Shown piece by piece: positions 3,953 to 8,738 of a DNA stretch of 36,089 nucleotides (position 1 is the first letter of the stretch; the number at the start of each line of letters is the position of its first letter). A program made the translations under genes and the position numbers. Source of the DNA: a virus; IMG/VR virus record IMGVR_UViG_3300045125_000002, positions 1 to 36,089 of that record; one strand, 5' to 3'. The notes below the pieces were generated by a model. It saw only the letters and a list, made by a program, of their open reading frames with translations. It searched no databases and was not told the origin of the DNA.

Positions 3953-4092
3953 TACCAACCTCCCAAACATTCTTGAGAGTGCGTGTGCATCTCCCATTGT
4001 TTCCAGTAAGCGTACTTGTTAGGTGCATACAGTTCAGTCTTGCAAGCACCACACTTTCCATACCACTCATCTGCAAAGAAATCGTAGGTCAT
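3952..4092 (-). CDS. Small zinc-finger-like protein (46 aa)
   Basis: Starts with ATG overlapping the helicase stop (ATGA) and stops by TAATG overlap with the next gene. It has CGAC near residues 14-17 and HTHSQEC near 36-42, together a plausible Cys2-His/Cys zinc site, and is aromatic-rich between them. Intact in the given sequence. It belongs to a series of small Cys-containing proteins in this early operon. No function known to me. Confidence 0.55.
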   Translation of the reverse strand: MTYDFFADEWYGKCGACKTELYAPNKYAYWKQWEMHTHSQECLGGW

Positions 4093-4968
4093 ACTGCTAT
4101 CTCATTTCCGTATTCGTCATATGGTGTGTAATCGCTATTGTAACCATACCTTGCATCTCTTTGAAGCATCGCCCCATATGCGTCTTTATTTGCTATCTGA
4201 CAAGAACCATAGTCCACTAAGAGTATGACGTAGTCCTTACCATCTGCTGCGTGTGGACCAAAGCGGTTCTTCACTGCTGCAATCTTCAACTCAGCATTAG
4301 TTGGGTTGTATCCAAGGGTTAGTATCAGCGCTGGTAACTGGCTCACCTTGCCGTGAATAGCACGGCGTGCAGGTGGTTCAGTGGGTGAGCCATACTCTGA
4401 CTGCTCAGATACGTGATGCAATACTAGAACGCAGGCTTCAGTCTTACGTGCCATATCGTGCAGCTCCATCATAATTGCACGAAGCCCTGCCCATTCGTTA
4501 TCTGTTTCAGCAGCAACATTCATCAGGTTATCTATGATGATCAGTTCTGGTGACTGTCCATAGAGTTCAACGTATGCCTTTACTTCCAACTCAATATCAT
4601 CGAGTGACGGACTGGAATCAAAGACCCACTTGATGTGCTTTAATTTCTCAAAGTAACCATCATAAAAGTGTGAGTCAGTTGAAAGGTTCTGCTCCACGTT
4701 AACTTGATTATGACCTGATGAATGCGCTGCTGCTCTCATCATTACTGTCGTAGTGTCAGTATCTGCTGAGAAGAACAAGAGTTGGTACCTTTGCTTTGAC
4801 TGCATAGATAAGCGCAAACATAGACTTACCAGCATTAGGTGCTGCTGCAACCATACAGACTTGTCCTCTACGGAACTTAATCTGCTTGGCTGCTAAGTCA
4901 GACCATACATCAGGCAGAGGTGTTGCTTTCGTAAGGACAGTTCCCCACGCACGTTGTAAGTCAAGCAA
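4089..4968 (-). CDS. DnaB/RecA-fold replicative helicase, frame-disrupted
   Basis: The N-terminal part, from a TTG at 4968 with GGGGAG upstream, contains the Walker A loop AAPNAGKSMFAL at about residues 42-53. After a frame change near 4780 the reading continues FFSADTDTTTVMMRA, then Walker B in SPELIIIDNLMNV, LVLHHVSEQ, and a C-terminal NRFGPHAADG segment. The order fits RecA-fold hexameric helicases of the DnaB type without the N-terminal primase-binding domain. Total length 880 nt is 3n+1; about 292 residues when one base is removed. It would unwind DNA at the phage fork with the primase encoded just after it. An upstream open stretch after the WhiB stop may mean the true start lies a little earlier. 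Confidence 0.8.
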
Positions 4969-5629: not shown

Positions 5630-6589
5630 TTACTTTCCTCCGTTTGATTTGATATTGAGTCTTACAGATTCGTTACCGACAACCTTCGGAACAAACCCCA
5701 GAAGTTTCTCAACTTCTTTTGCGTCTACAGTCTCACGACCTTTGACTGTTGTCCAACTGATTTCAATGCCACTTTTGGTGACACCAGTGGAACCTTCTAG
5801 TGCAGCCTTGTATGTTTCTTTTTCTTTTTCAAGCTCTTTAATCTTGCCATCTAACTGTAAGTAGTGCAAGGCGTGCTTGTCAATCTCATCGTCCTCAATC
5901 ACGACTTCACTAAGGACGATACGTTCTTTTAATAGACCTACGCATCCCATCTCTCCAGATGGATCATAGTATTGGCAGAAGTCTTTGCAGAAACTTGCTT
6001 CCTTCTCAGGAGCAGGGGCTTCTGTCATAGCCTTGACATTGGCCAGCCAGTGCAGCGCAGCCTCTGCCATAGTCTCATCGTATGGTTCAGTAAAGACTTT
6101 AATATCTTTCTCGCTACCATCACGAGCAATCGCTACTAGGTTTACTGTCTTAACATCAAAGCCATTCTTTGATAGCAAGTAACCATAGACCTGCACCTGC
6201 CAGCGCTGTTGATTGCTAGGAAAGTAACCAAGGTTCTTTACCTTAGATGTCTTCCAGTCAATGACTGCACCAGTTTCAGGTACGAATAAATCTACGTGTG
6301 CTTTCAGGTCGCCATAAGCAACTTCAGTCTCAACTAAATACTCTTTGCCTTCTGGGTCTAAGTGACAAATCGCTTCTTCAATAGCAGCGTGGATAGCAGT
6401 ACCCATAATCGCTGCCAGCTTAGATTGATTCTCATTAGTCTCAGGTTGGCCGTTAAGTCTGTACCAAACCTTGCGCCGGCAACCACCAATCTCTGATGGA
6501 CCTACCTCAGTCTGCTGACTTCTATCACGACTTGCATCTTTAGAATGCAGTACGTGCAGCAGTAATTCTTTTGGATCTGCTATCGCCAT
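5630..6589 (-). CDS. Cas4/RecB-like PD-(D/E)XK exonuclease
   Basis: An intact 319-residue protein. Catalytic residues in order: H67 (GTAIHAAIE), D100 (AHVDLFVPE), D111-x-K113 (VIDWKTSK), and QVQVYGYLL with the Q-x3-Y motif. Four cysteines, C37 (GGCRRK), C201 and C205 (CKDFC) and C216 (MGCVG), match the one-plus-three pattern that binds an Fe-S cluster in Cas4 and AddB-type nucleases. The C-terminal third has a charged helix (KIKELEKEKETYKAAL). There is no CRISPR array in the window, so the likely role is phage recombination or end resection. It overlaps a small membrane gene by 10 nt upstream, and GGAGG at its end serves as the next gene's ribosome site. Confidence 0.85.
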   Translation of the reverse strand: MAIADPKELLLHVLHSKDASRDRSQQTEVGPSEIGGCRRKVWYRLNGQPETNENQSKLAAIMGTAIHAAIEEAICHLDPEGKEYLVETEVAYGDLKAHVDLFVPETGAVIDWKTSKVKNLGYFPSNQQRWQVQVYGYLLSKNGFDVKTVNLVAIARDGSEKDIKVFTEPYDETMAEAALHWLANVKAMTEAPAPEKEASFCKDFCQYYDPSGEMGCVGLLKERIVLSEVVIEDDEIDKHALHYLQLDGKIKELEKEKETYKAALEGSTGVTKSGIEISWTTVKGRETVDAKEVEKLLGFVPKVVGNESVRLNIKSNGGK

Positions 6590-6687
6590 CTCTTATCATC
6601 TCTCCACTGCAACCAGGCATCAAACCCATAAGCGCTAACAAAACCTATGAGGAATGAGATGCCGCAATATGCAATTAACTCTTTCAT
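6580..6687 (-). CDS. Small single-pass membrane protein (35 aa)
   Basis: Intact 35-residue frame that starts with an ATGA overlap on the peptidase stop and ends inside the start of the Cas4-like gene. Residues 4-20 (LIAYCGISFLIGFVSAY) form one hydrophobic segment, followed by a charged tail (WRDDKRW). Probably inserted in the membrane with the basic end in the cytoplasm. No function recognised. Confidence 0.5.
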   Translation of the reverse strand: MKELIAYCGISFLIGFVSAYGFDAWLQWRDDKRWR

Positions 6688-7244
6688 TTATGCGCCCTCT
6701 CTTGTGTAACAACTTGTATTGGTGGACAGGTGTTGATGTCAAGTAAGGATGCAATCTCTACAGCCTTCTTAGCAACAACACTTGCCATTAACAACGTATT
6801 GTAATTCTTATGTGGCAAGGAATACAAGTACCCTAAGGCATAATTTCCACCTGAGCCTGCCGAAAATAATCCGCGCTCGGATGCGTTAAAGGACAAGTCC
6901 CCGCCGATAGAGAACATATTGCCGTTGAACCCAATAAGGAACGAGAAGTTCATCTCCTTGTTGTCTATCTCGTAGTTACCTTCTTTGAAAGCTGCCGAGA
7001 TACTAGGCAGAATCTTTGCTCCCATAAACTGGGTCGGATGTTCACCACGATATAGCGGTGGTTTCCACGCATAAGCCAAGATGTCACCTGGCCGTGAGTC
7101 ACCAGTAAGACCAAGCAGATACTTTCCGTTGCTCACAATCTTGGGTGTTTGTACTGAGATGATGCGCGAATCACCATCAGTGATCTGCGAATCGGCTGCC
7201 ATTACTAAGAAATCGTTTCCTTGGATTCCTACGAGAGTTGTCAT
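6684..7244 (-). CDS. Proteasome beta / HslV-like Ntn-hydrolase peptidase
   Basis: From the ATG at 7244 the protein begins M-TTLVGIQGND. Removing Met would expose an N-terminal Thr, the nucleophile of proteasome beta and HslV peptidases. Counting from that Thr, Asp17 (AADSQ) is in the exact family position, Lys34 (TPKI) is one off the usual Lys33, and FSAGSGGNYALG at about 126-137 matches the conserved Ser-Gly-Gly region after the substrate cleft. The mature length of 185 fits HslV-type subunits. No propeptide, ATPase or activator is encoded nearby. It is the first gene of the early operon, facing the plus-strand island. No Shine-Dalgarno site is visible before the ATG. Fold and nucleophile are well supported; its target is unknown. 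Confidence 0.85.
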   Translation of the reverse strand: MTTLVGIQGNDFLVMAADSQITDGDSRIISVQTPKIVSNGKYLLGLTGDSRPGDILAYAWKPPLYRGEHPTQFMGAKILPSISAAFKEGNYEIDNKEMNFSFLIGFNGNMFSIGGDLSFNASERGLFSAGSGGNYALGYLYSLPHKNYNTLLMASVVAKKAVEIASLLDINTCPPIQVVTQERAHK

Positions 7245-7275
7245 ACTGGAGATAATATCACGGCGTGTCGTCCAA

Positions 7276-7303
7276 TTCACATACTGGGCAAGATGATTAT
7301 AAT
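7276..7303 (+). promoter_or_regulatory. Sigma-70-type promoter for the plus-strand island
   Basis: TTCACA at 7276-7281 (5 of 6 matches to TTGACA), a 16-nt spacer, and a perfect TATAAT at 7298-7303. Transcription would start near 7310, upstream of the zinc-ribbon and HNH genes. The -10 lies in ATTATAAT, which also reads TATAAT on the minus strand, so the site may serve the early operon too; I see no good -35 in that direction. Confidence 0.65.
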
Positions 7304-7367: not shown

Positions 7368-7634
7368 ATGGTACTCCGTCTACCAACCCTGCGAAAATTC
7401 AGGTCTTGGCGTAACGCCTACAATGGCCTTCCTGAGCCTTTTGGGGCCGATATAAGGCCGTTAGGCCCAGTCCACGTATGTTCCTGTGGGTCACAGGTCT
7501 TTAGCGTCTTAGCATCCTTTGATGATTACGAGTTAGTCTGGTACTTCCTTGATGCTACCTGCGCTAGTTGTGGAAATCTAGTACGAGTTCCCTGCCCTCC
7601 AGATCGAGATGAAGCACAGACTCTCGGAGATTAA
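7368..7634 (+). CDS. Zinc-ribbon-like protein (88 aa)
   Basis: Start chosen at the ATG at 7368 because GAGAGG lies 6 nt upstream and the promoter predicts a transcript start near 7310, after any earlier start codons in this frame. Two knuckles, CSCG at about residues 38-41 and CASCG at about 63-67, are separated by an aromatic beta-like stretch (YELVWYFLDA), the shape of a zinc ribbon. The N-terminus is basic (LPTLRKFRSWRNAY). Its end overlaps the HNH gene start by 26 nt. It may bind nucleic acid and work with the nuclease, but no family is recognised. Confidence 0.6.
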   Translation: MVLRLPTLRKFRSWRNAYNGLPEPFGADIRPLGPVHVCSCGSQVFSVLASFDDYELVWYFLDATCASCGNLVRVPCPPDRDEAQTLGD

Positions 7635-7962
7635 CGAAGAGAATCGGACTGGTATATGCTCAGTCTGTGGCCCAACCAAAATCAAAACAAGGGATGCAAG
7701 AATGTCAACCCTTAAAAGCAAATACAGATGTTATGTCGTCTACCGCAGAAACGTTGTCAACAGCAGGTATCCGCACGCAGTACACAAGAAAGACTACTGT
7801 GAACACTGCAACTTCAAGCCAGTCCACTCTAGTCAGTTGGACGTTGACCACATTGACGGAGATAGGTATAACAACGACCCTGCTAACTTACAAACGCTCT
7901 GTGCAAACTGCCACCGACTCAAGACCCATCTAAGTGGGGATAGCAATTCAGGTATCTGGTAA
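7609..7962 (+). CDS. HNH endonuclease
   Basis: A 117-residue HNH protein. The core is LDVDHIDGDRYNND at about residues 77-90 (the DH pair being D80-H81), with the conserved Asn, then LCANCHRLKTH at 97-107. Structural zinc cysteines are C64-x2-C67 and C98-x2-C101, and there is an extra CSVC pair at 17-20. HNH enzymes of this size occur as free-standing homing-type nucleases and as packaging nucleases. Here the gene is on the opposite strand to everything else, with its own promoter and away from the terminase, which favours a mobile or moron origin over a packaging role. Confidence 0.85.
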   Translation: MKHRLSEINEENRTGICSVCGPTKIKTRDARMSTLKSKYRCYVVYRRNVVNSRYPHAVHKKDYCEHCNFKPVHSSQLDVDHIDGDRYNNDPANLQTLCANCHRLKTHLSGDSNSGIW

Positions 7963-8237: not shown

Positions 8238-8738
8238 CTAGTCTTTGAACTTCGGGCTACCGAAGCCAACAAGAAAAACCTTTAACTTCTTTTTGTTATT
8301 GGTTTTATATGCGCGAACCTTCTGTGCTACTTCTCCACCATTGCGCTCTGATGAAGACTTCTTCTTAGTACCTGCGGTGTTACCTTCGATGGTAGTAACA
8401 GTGCCATCTCCGTTGTCCTTGACCACAATACCTACGTGGTCTATTGGATTGCCGCCTTCTTGAAAATCAAAGAATGCTAAGTCTCCTGGCTTTGGCTTGG
8501 CAGTTTCTGCATTAGACCAAGCGCCAGTTCCCTTGAACTTCTCAGCACCGAGGTGTGTGCTTACGACATTTGGGATCTTAAGACCAACCTGATGAGCGCA
8601 CCACATAACAAAACTACCGCACCAAGGAAGAAAGTTTGCTTTAGTAAACGCACCATACTTCGTCTCATTATCCTTAGGTCCTTCTACTGTGCCAATCTCT
8701 TTGGTGGCAACTGCTAGAAAATCTGCACGCTGACTCAT
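8238..8738 (-). CDS. CHAP-type endolysin
   Basis: A 166-residue single-domain cell-wall hydrolase. The catalytic Cys is C40 in FLPWCGSFVMWC, His is H101 in PIDHVGIVV, and the polar third residue is in TIEGN near 117-120, the CHAP order. KPKPGDLAFF (81-90) is the usual strand before the His. The C-terminus is lysine-rich (TNNKKKLKVFLVG) and no separate cell-wall-binding domain is visible. It would cut peptidoglycan peptides during lysis. Its start overlaps the stop of the membrane gene upstream, and the holin-like gene follows after 8 nt. Confidence 0.85.
   Translation of the reverse strand: MSQRADFLAVATKEIGTVEGPKDNETKYGAFTKANFLPWCGSFVMWCAHQVGLKIPNVVSTHLGAEKFKGTGAWSNAETAKPKPGDLAFFDFQEGGNPIDHVGIVVKDNGDGTVTTIEGNTAGTKKKSSSERNGGEVAQKVRAYKTNNKKKLKVFLVGFGSPKFKD

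Follow-up and report, generated by a model that had tools for sequence, protein, structure and literature searches.

A proteasome-like Ntn peptidase gene heading the presumed early block of a probable actinophage lineage, and its exchange for a putative metallopeptidase

Organization of the locus

The window analysed here is a DNA stretch of 36,089 nucleotides, positions 1 to 36,089 of the IMG/VR virus record IMGVR_UViG_3300045125_000002. Its minus strand carries a gene for a proteasome-like Ntn threonine peptidase. The features of this region are as follows:

5630–6589, minus strand: PD-(D/E)XK (Cas4/RecB-like) exonuclease, the conserved next gene, recognized by family matches and used as the anchor of the slot survey
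6684–7244, minus strand: coding sequence of the Ntn (proteasome-like) threonine peptidase, 186 aa, with ATG at 7244–7242; assigned by family matches, conservation and predicted fold
6738–6740, minus strand: codon of the Asp166 equivalent (ORF residue 169), invariant; assigned by alignment position
6849–6857, minus strand: Gly-Ser-Gly loop with the Ser129 equivalent (ORF residues 130–132), invariant but for one Thr replacing Ser
7140–7142, minus strand: codon of the Lys33 equivalent (ORF residue 35; Lys34 counted from Thr), invariant
7191–7193, minus strand: codon of the Asp17 equivalent (ORF residue 18), invariant
7239–7241, minus strand: codon of the catalytic Thr1 (second codon; exposed after removal of the start Met), invariant in 131 of 131 viral relatives
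7242–7260, minus strand: extended -10 element TGA-TATTAT-CTCCAGT-ATG, 7 nt 5' of the start codon; a leaderless mRNA is implied
7256–7269, minus strand: leader motif GACACGCCGTGATA, common to most relatives in the leader comparison and one half of the inverted repeat GTGTCnnnnGACAC
7609–7962, plus strand: divergent HNH endonuclease ORF, the other boundary of the slot, found by ORF and neighbourhood comparison

Translation of the minus strand of 6684–7244 gives 186 aa with a single terminal stop (MTTLVGIQGNDFLVMAADSQITDGDSRIISVQTPK...AGSGGNYALG...; read from 7244 to 6684 also as MTTLVGIQGNDFLVMAADSQITDGDSRIISVQTPKIV...GLFSAGSGGNYALG...), and the plus strand of the same interval has stops throughout. 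In nearly all IMG/VR loci the peptidase gene immediately precedes the gene for the PD-(D/E)XK exonuclease, beyond which lie a small conserved ORF and the genes for DnaB, RusA and primase; on its other side are the lysis genes and, in many loci, the divergent HNH ORF. It thus stands at the head of the early/replication block, as the earlier note on this DNA had proposed in calling it the first early gene. A tRNA scan returned none.

Several departures from this arrangement were seen. In the window, the DnaB-like helicase is split across two frames (4089–4968, minus strand); since Walker A is in frame in 265 of 266 loci, this split represents a private frameshift or an assembly error. In ct2KA10 (L085), the peptidase ORF (6001–6537) directly follows the portal ORF and does not head the early block. 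A WhiB-family gene directly follows the homologous peptidase gene in DSL-LC01 (L082, 8001–8954). In the distantly related Streptomyces phage Manuel, a WhiB-like gene precedes that of a RecB-type exonuclease, which has no detectable match to the exonuclease of the window. An early function in controlling the host may be common to the peptidase and WhiB.

Leader and start codon

The pattern TGN-TANNNT was found 6 or 7 nt before ATG in 67 of 98 distinct leaders, and in none at the other spacings tried. Over the whole window there is a single match to the extended -10 pattern where about two per spacing are expected by chance, so that the evidence for a promoter is the conservation of this element at one place across relatives. 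As the extended -10 lies only 6–7 nt before ATG, the early mRNA of the peptidase gene would be leaderless. An inverted repeat, GTGTCTTGCGACAC, occurs just 5' of the -10 element in most relatives (upstream of 7260, minus strand) and is degenerate in the window; the leader repeat is possibly an operator.

Met directly precedes Thr, and the reading frame is closed 0–5 codons upstream of this Met in many relatives, so that a propeptide is absent, in line with the earlier note. A longer GTG start at 7280, which would add a 12-residue extension, was ruled out by the same closure of the frame. In 10 of the 131 relatives, ATC (L007, L008, L020, L043, L047, L048, L053 and L054 among them) or ATA (L046) stands in place of ATG at the peptidase start. 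In most of these relatives, a Shine-Dalgarno-like sequence lies 6–8 nt before the start, into which an inserted ORF (HNH or a small gene) reads from upstream; ATC instead of ATG removes the TGA stop of the upstream frame at this point. ATC and ATA are possibly rare start codons used with translational coupling.

The earlier note had also seen no ATPase partner nearby. This holds more widely: AAA and AAA_2 domains were absent from 18 phage records, several of them possibly fragments, while 14 of 14 control genomes gave matches. An HslU-like gene (AAA_2) was accordingly not present in these 18 records, a result that refers to phage genomes only.

Family affiliation and active site

The 186-aa ORF matched the Pfam Proteasome family PF00227 (E 7.6e-07; 29.4 bits against a cut-off of 22.4) and phrog_1040, 'peptidase HslV family' (E 1.2e-24). 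A phmmer search of PDB sequences returned HslV at about 1e-4 and BPH, the betaproteobacterial proteasome homologue, at 4.5e-4. Membership in the PF00227 superfamily is borne out by the score, the Ntn fold and the N-terminal Thr with Asp17, Lys33 and Gly47. Of the 'proteasome/HslV-like' label given to this protein in the earlier note, the superfamily part therefore stands, and the HslV part falls: scores of 33.4 and 33.2 bits compare with NCBIfam cut-offs of 137 and 157.75 for the HslV equivalogs. The 20S proteasome beta subunit was rejected likewise, with 26.6 bits against 224 for the archaeal beta equivalog (NCBIfam) and no other proteasome beta model among the matches listed. The protein does display the features of group I proteasome homologues (HslV, BPH, AAH, CPH, PPH), being compact, without insertions and without S12/H5, and having BPH and HslV as best matches.

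Counted from Thr, the active-site landmarks lie where the earlier note had placed them: Asp17, Lys34 and a GSGG loop at 129–132. The Lys is one position beyond the canonical 33. The equivalents of Thr1, Asp17, Lys33, Gly47, both Gly of the GSG loop and Asp166 are invariant in 131 of 131 aligned viral relatives, the Asp166 equivalent being assigned by alignment column only, one at which the HslV rows have no Asp. Scanning IMG/VR with the window protein revealed 311 stretches encoding relatives, 80 of which were retained, and a profile scan yielded more. None of the peptide patterns that retrieved these 80 loci covered Thr, Asp17, Lys or the Gly-Ser-Gly loop, so that the conservation of landmarks among them is largely unbiased; one pattern includes the Asp166 equivalent. 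Values of dN/dS against closer relatives were about 0.1 (approximately 0.07–0.14), disregarding the high dN of several pairs that were out of register owing to a small indel. The peptidase is presumably catalytically active.

Predicted structure

The AlphaFold2 monomer model, built from a 39-row alignment, had a pLDDT of 91.5 and a pTM of 0.88. It is predicted to be an Ntn sandwich with helices at residues 50–59, 70–88, 133–142 and 151–168, and the chain ends after the last strand. The top solved structure was BPH (Z 20.7, rmsd 2.7, 174 residues), followed by proteasome beta and HslV with Z of about 19–20; these matches span 165–175 residues. The nearest viral model covers the whole chain with a TM of 0.88. 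Thus, PF00227 above its cut-off, phrog_1040 and the Ntn model agree in placing a proteasome-like Ntn peptidase at 6684–7244, for which the earlier note had given no strand. Two findings had been named there as grounds for abandoning this assignment, a predicted fold other than Ntn and relatives lacking the Thr nucleophile; the predicted fold is Ntn, and the relatives keep Thr1, which is Ser in one distant phage.

BPH and HslV are homomeric double rings without alpha subunits (PMC8665760). Resemblance to these two proteins is the basis for expecting that the phage peptidase probably assembles into a ring.

Relationship to known proteasome homologues

Phage-borne proteasome homologues have been described before (Fuchs, Alva, Lupas 2021; PMC8665760). 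PPH, AAH and related group I proteins, as well as PHROG 1040, are likewise phage-encoded and compact, with an Ntn fold and the catalytic Thr beside the start Met; like the window protein, they have no propeptide, no S12/H5 C-terminal elements and no AAA+ partner (PMC8665760). PPH, however, is about 140 aa long and lacks helix H2, whereas the window protein has 186 aa and contains H2 (helix 70–88), which sets it outside PPH. BPH (PDB 5ovs, 5ovt, 5ovu), the best structural match, also has no propeptide and no known unfoldase, but shares only 21–22% identity with the window protein, in which the H2–S5 loop is shorter than in BPH-like rows. HslV (ClpQ) has the same fold and active-site layout but is distant in the tree.

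In a 48-row tree, the window protein falls inside a 17-row clade (96/97) of IMG/VR phages. Proteins of Vibrio, Aeromonas and Moorella phages form another clade (98/94) together with AAH-like proteins of Rhizobium and Streptomyces plasmids, which display MTCIVGL...GFTSSFRMGQLL and a GCG loop. This AAH-like group is so named by host only, and it is from these plasmid homologues that the clade of the window protein is set apart. BPH-like proteins make up a separate clade (98/96), with HslV as the outgroup. The proteins of Hum25, Pumpernickel, LeeroyJenkins, DSL-LC01 and ct2KA10 were unplaced, some of them on long branches. By identity, the window protein is an ordinary member of a known superfamily, but it belongs to a distinct clade.

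Distant homologues were found in phages of Vibrio, Aeromonas, Xanthomonas, Geobacillus, Moorella, Arthrobacter and Microbacterium. Those from actinophages have the same active site and are annotated as 'ATP-dependent protease subunit' (the Actinomycetia phage DSL-LC01) or 'protease' (the Arthrobacter phages Hum25 and Pitbull, and the Microbacterium phages Pumpernickel and LeeroyJenkins). They differ from the window protein in their neighbourhoods and are 27–34% identical to it where matched; LeeroyJenkins was reached only via an Arthrobacter protein. In Aeromonas phage 2L372X (L095), the adjacent genes 2L372X_210 and 2L372X_211 are both annotated as peptidase HslV family and possibly encode a two-subunit phage proteasome.

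The large terminase subunit (TerL) and capsid protein of the window are nearest to those of ct2KA10, an unassigned phage (48–49%), and then to those of Streptomyces phages (43–46%), which makes an actinobacterial host likely. A search of cellular genome contigs for a close prophage copy revealed none. The relatives found there were only 21–36% identical and, by sequence, represent HslV, BPH-like proteins and one short prophage-type homologue; all being distant, no host is shown by a prophage.

Exchange of the peptidase gene for an HExxH ORF

To survey the content of the slot, the exonuclease sequence by itself and a profile of it served as queries against IMG/VR, and the contigs with at least 800 nt upstream were retained (n = 113). 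The Ntn peptidase occupied the slot in 92 contigs and an ORF of about 110 aa with a zincin-like HExxH motif (MPRIYSVKIFGQRYKIDY...VLMHEVTHAVIHESLL...FDVEEVCDLVGYHI...) in the other 21; no contig had both or neither. Likewise, no Ntn match was detected in 18 records of the HExxH type and no match to the HExxH ORF in 15 records of the Ntn type. The leaders of the two types are homologous, with up to 87% identity over 120 nt, and the coding sequence changes at the start codon. The extended -10 layout is also present in 24 of 33 HExxH-type leaders.

HExxH and a downstream EE are invariant in all 43 replacement proteins examined. These proteins score just under the Pfam cut-offs for DUF6782, a putative metallopeptidase family (25.4–26.6 against 27), and Peptidase_M78 (18.6–19.1 against 22). 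The model of the replacement (pLDDT 85.7) ranked IrrE/PprI, SPRTN, ArdC, Wss1 and other metallopeptidases first, with Z of at most 7.5; a Z under 8 is insufficient by itself to establish the fold. Because the HExxH motif and the family matches agree, the replacement is likely a zincin and a putative protease. PADLOC matched neither the peptidase nor its HExxH replacement.

On the exonuclease tree, parsimony gave 10 changes of slot type, at least 6 of them on well-supported branches, compared with 24 in shuffles. This count comes from a quick tree, and recombination between exonuclease and slot would produce the same pattern, which is still an exchange of the slot. Since a putative protease has repeatedly and cleanly been replaced by an unrelated putative protease, proteolysis appears to be the selected function, which suggests that the position serves proteolysis early in infection.

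The lysis region of these phages also varies, carrying either a CHAP lysin (8238–8738 in the window, minus strand) or an unrelated ORF (L188:995–1447, phrog_32486) with the motifs SDHNSG...HLHIS, and both types occur with either slot protease. A comparison of this variation with the slot exchange was dropped, the alternative ORF having no informative family match.

Possible function

We propose that the gene encodes an early, ATPase-independent Ntn peptidase of the group I branch (BPH/HslV-like) that is aimed at one or more host regulator or defence proteins, a reading to which we give slightly more belief than doubt. Transcription of the early block would begin with this gene; in most relatives an extended -10 promoter would yield a leaderless mRNA. 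Thr1 would be exposed by the host Met-aminopeptidase, and the subunits would probably form a ring with neither an alpha ring nor an AAA+ unfoldase. The peptidase would cleave or degrade one or a few specific host proteins as infection begins; the first place in the early block suggests a target that is already present at that time. Degradation of host defence proteins, raised in the earlier note, is possible. In about a fifth of the relatives the HExxH protein fills the same slot, and proteolysis would be the conserved task of that slot. By analogy, a precedent for the use of a metalloprotease-fold protein on entry is ArdC, an antirestriction protein of plasmid R388 that has a metalloprotease domain and acts in the recipient cell (PMC7213743). 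More tentatively, and with doubt outweighing confidence, the position could be a dedicated 'takeover protease' slot of a large actinophage lineage, in which an Ntn peptidase or a zincin interchangeably attacks the same host target, possibly a defence protein. Given the WhiB-like gene in Manuel, the slot may also be a wider early-takeover position with general early cargo. A point against a takeover role is ct2KA10, where the peptidase gene follows the portal gene instead of belonging to the early block.

The main alternative is that the slot protease clears DNA-bound or crosslinked proteins or otherwise serves the replication module. We consider this unlikely, even though the peptidase gene directly precedes those for the exonuclease, DnaB, RusA and primase, and the fold matches of the replacement include SPRTN (6mdx, Z 6.9) and Wss1 (5xbn, Z 5.5). 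The metalloprotease SPRTN and the proteasome are alternative proteases for DNA–protein crosslinks in animal cells, and either can degrade them in egg extracts (PMC6375733). This parallel, however, comes from another domain of life, the similarity to SPRTN is weak and common to many zincins, and the 186 aa of the peptidase show no DNA-binding part. About equally improbable is a role in regulating early genes of the phage itself, for example by cleavage of a repressor bound to the leader inverted repeat. ImmA-type M78 proteases cleave their repressors, the replacement protein is weakly similar to M78/IrrE, GTGTCnnnnGACAC lies just before the -10 element in most relatives, and the protease gene is the first under that promoter. 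However, the window yielded no repressor gene, its copy of the repeat is degenerate, and two unrelated proteases would have to recognize the same repressor. A non-protease Ntn hydrolase, such as an amidohydrolase or a connectase-like ligase, is marginally less probable than these two: both helix pairs are present, no connectase-type insertion occurs between S3 and S4, and the gene is exchanged for that of an HExxH protein.

Processing of scaffold or capsid by a prohead maturation protease would account for the gene order in ct2KA10, a phage with a terminase 48% identical to that of the window: there the portal ORF is immediately followed by the peptidase ORF. Scanning the head genes of the window revealed no recognizable prohead protease. 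This role is nevertheless very improbable: the peptidase gene heads the replication block in the window and more than 100 relatives, and a different kind of protein replaces it in 21 of 113 contigs. In addition, the capsid protein of Streptomyces phage Manuel is homologous (43%), yet this phage has no match to the peptidase, and in LeeroyJenkins a capsid maturation protease is annotated as distinct from the Ntn protease. Least credible of all is the insertion of the peptidase into the host 20S proteasome, or its capping, to give hybrid particles. Many Actinobacteria possess proteasomes, and the hosts are probably Actinobacteria. Nothing, however, links the peptidase to the host proteasome, which the earlier note had suggested it might join, and no specific similarity to PrcB is seen. 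Related proteins also occur in phages of Vibrio and Aeromonas, hosts that are not known to have a 20S proteasome. The closest relatives in structure and sequence, BPH and HslV, are the homomeric double rings without alpha subunits mentioned above (PMC8665760).

Significance

Fuchs et al. found no gene context hinting at the function of phage proteasome-like proteins, and their survey reported no AAH in Actinobacteria-specific phages (PMC8665760). Apart from this survey, our literature search for the function of phage HslV or proteasome proteins found only unrelated papers. As far as our searches show, the context of the present clade is both informative and undescribed. Its new elements are the fixed early position, the recognizable promoter layout and, within one clade, the repeated swap with a metallopeptidase-like protein; the swap newly supports proteolysis as the purpose of the peptidase gene. 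Actinophages do carry such proteins, unlike the result of the 2021 survey for AAH. Together with the cultivated phages of Arthrobacter and Microbacterium, this clade closes the actinophage gap for related proteins, whether or not these count as AAH. The cultivated homologues, in phages of Arthrobacter globiformis and Microbacterium paraoxydans, make proteolysis early in infection testable. If the slot does serve host takeover, phage proteasome homologues would gain their first functional role, and the swap would exemplify the convergent displacement of proteases with the host as the driving force.
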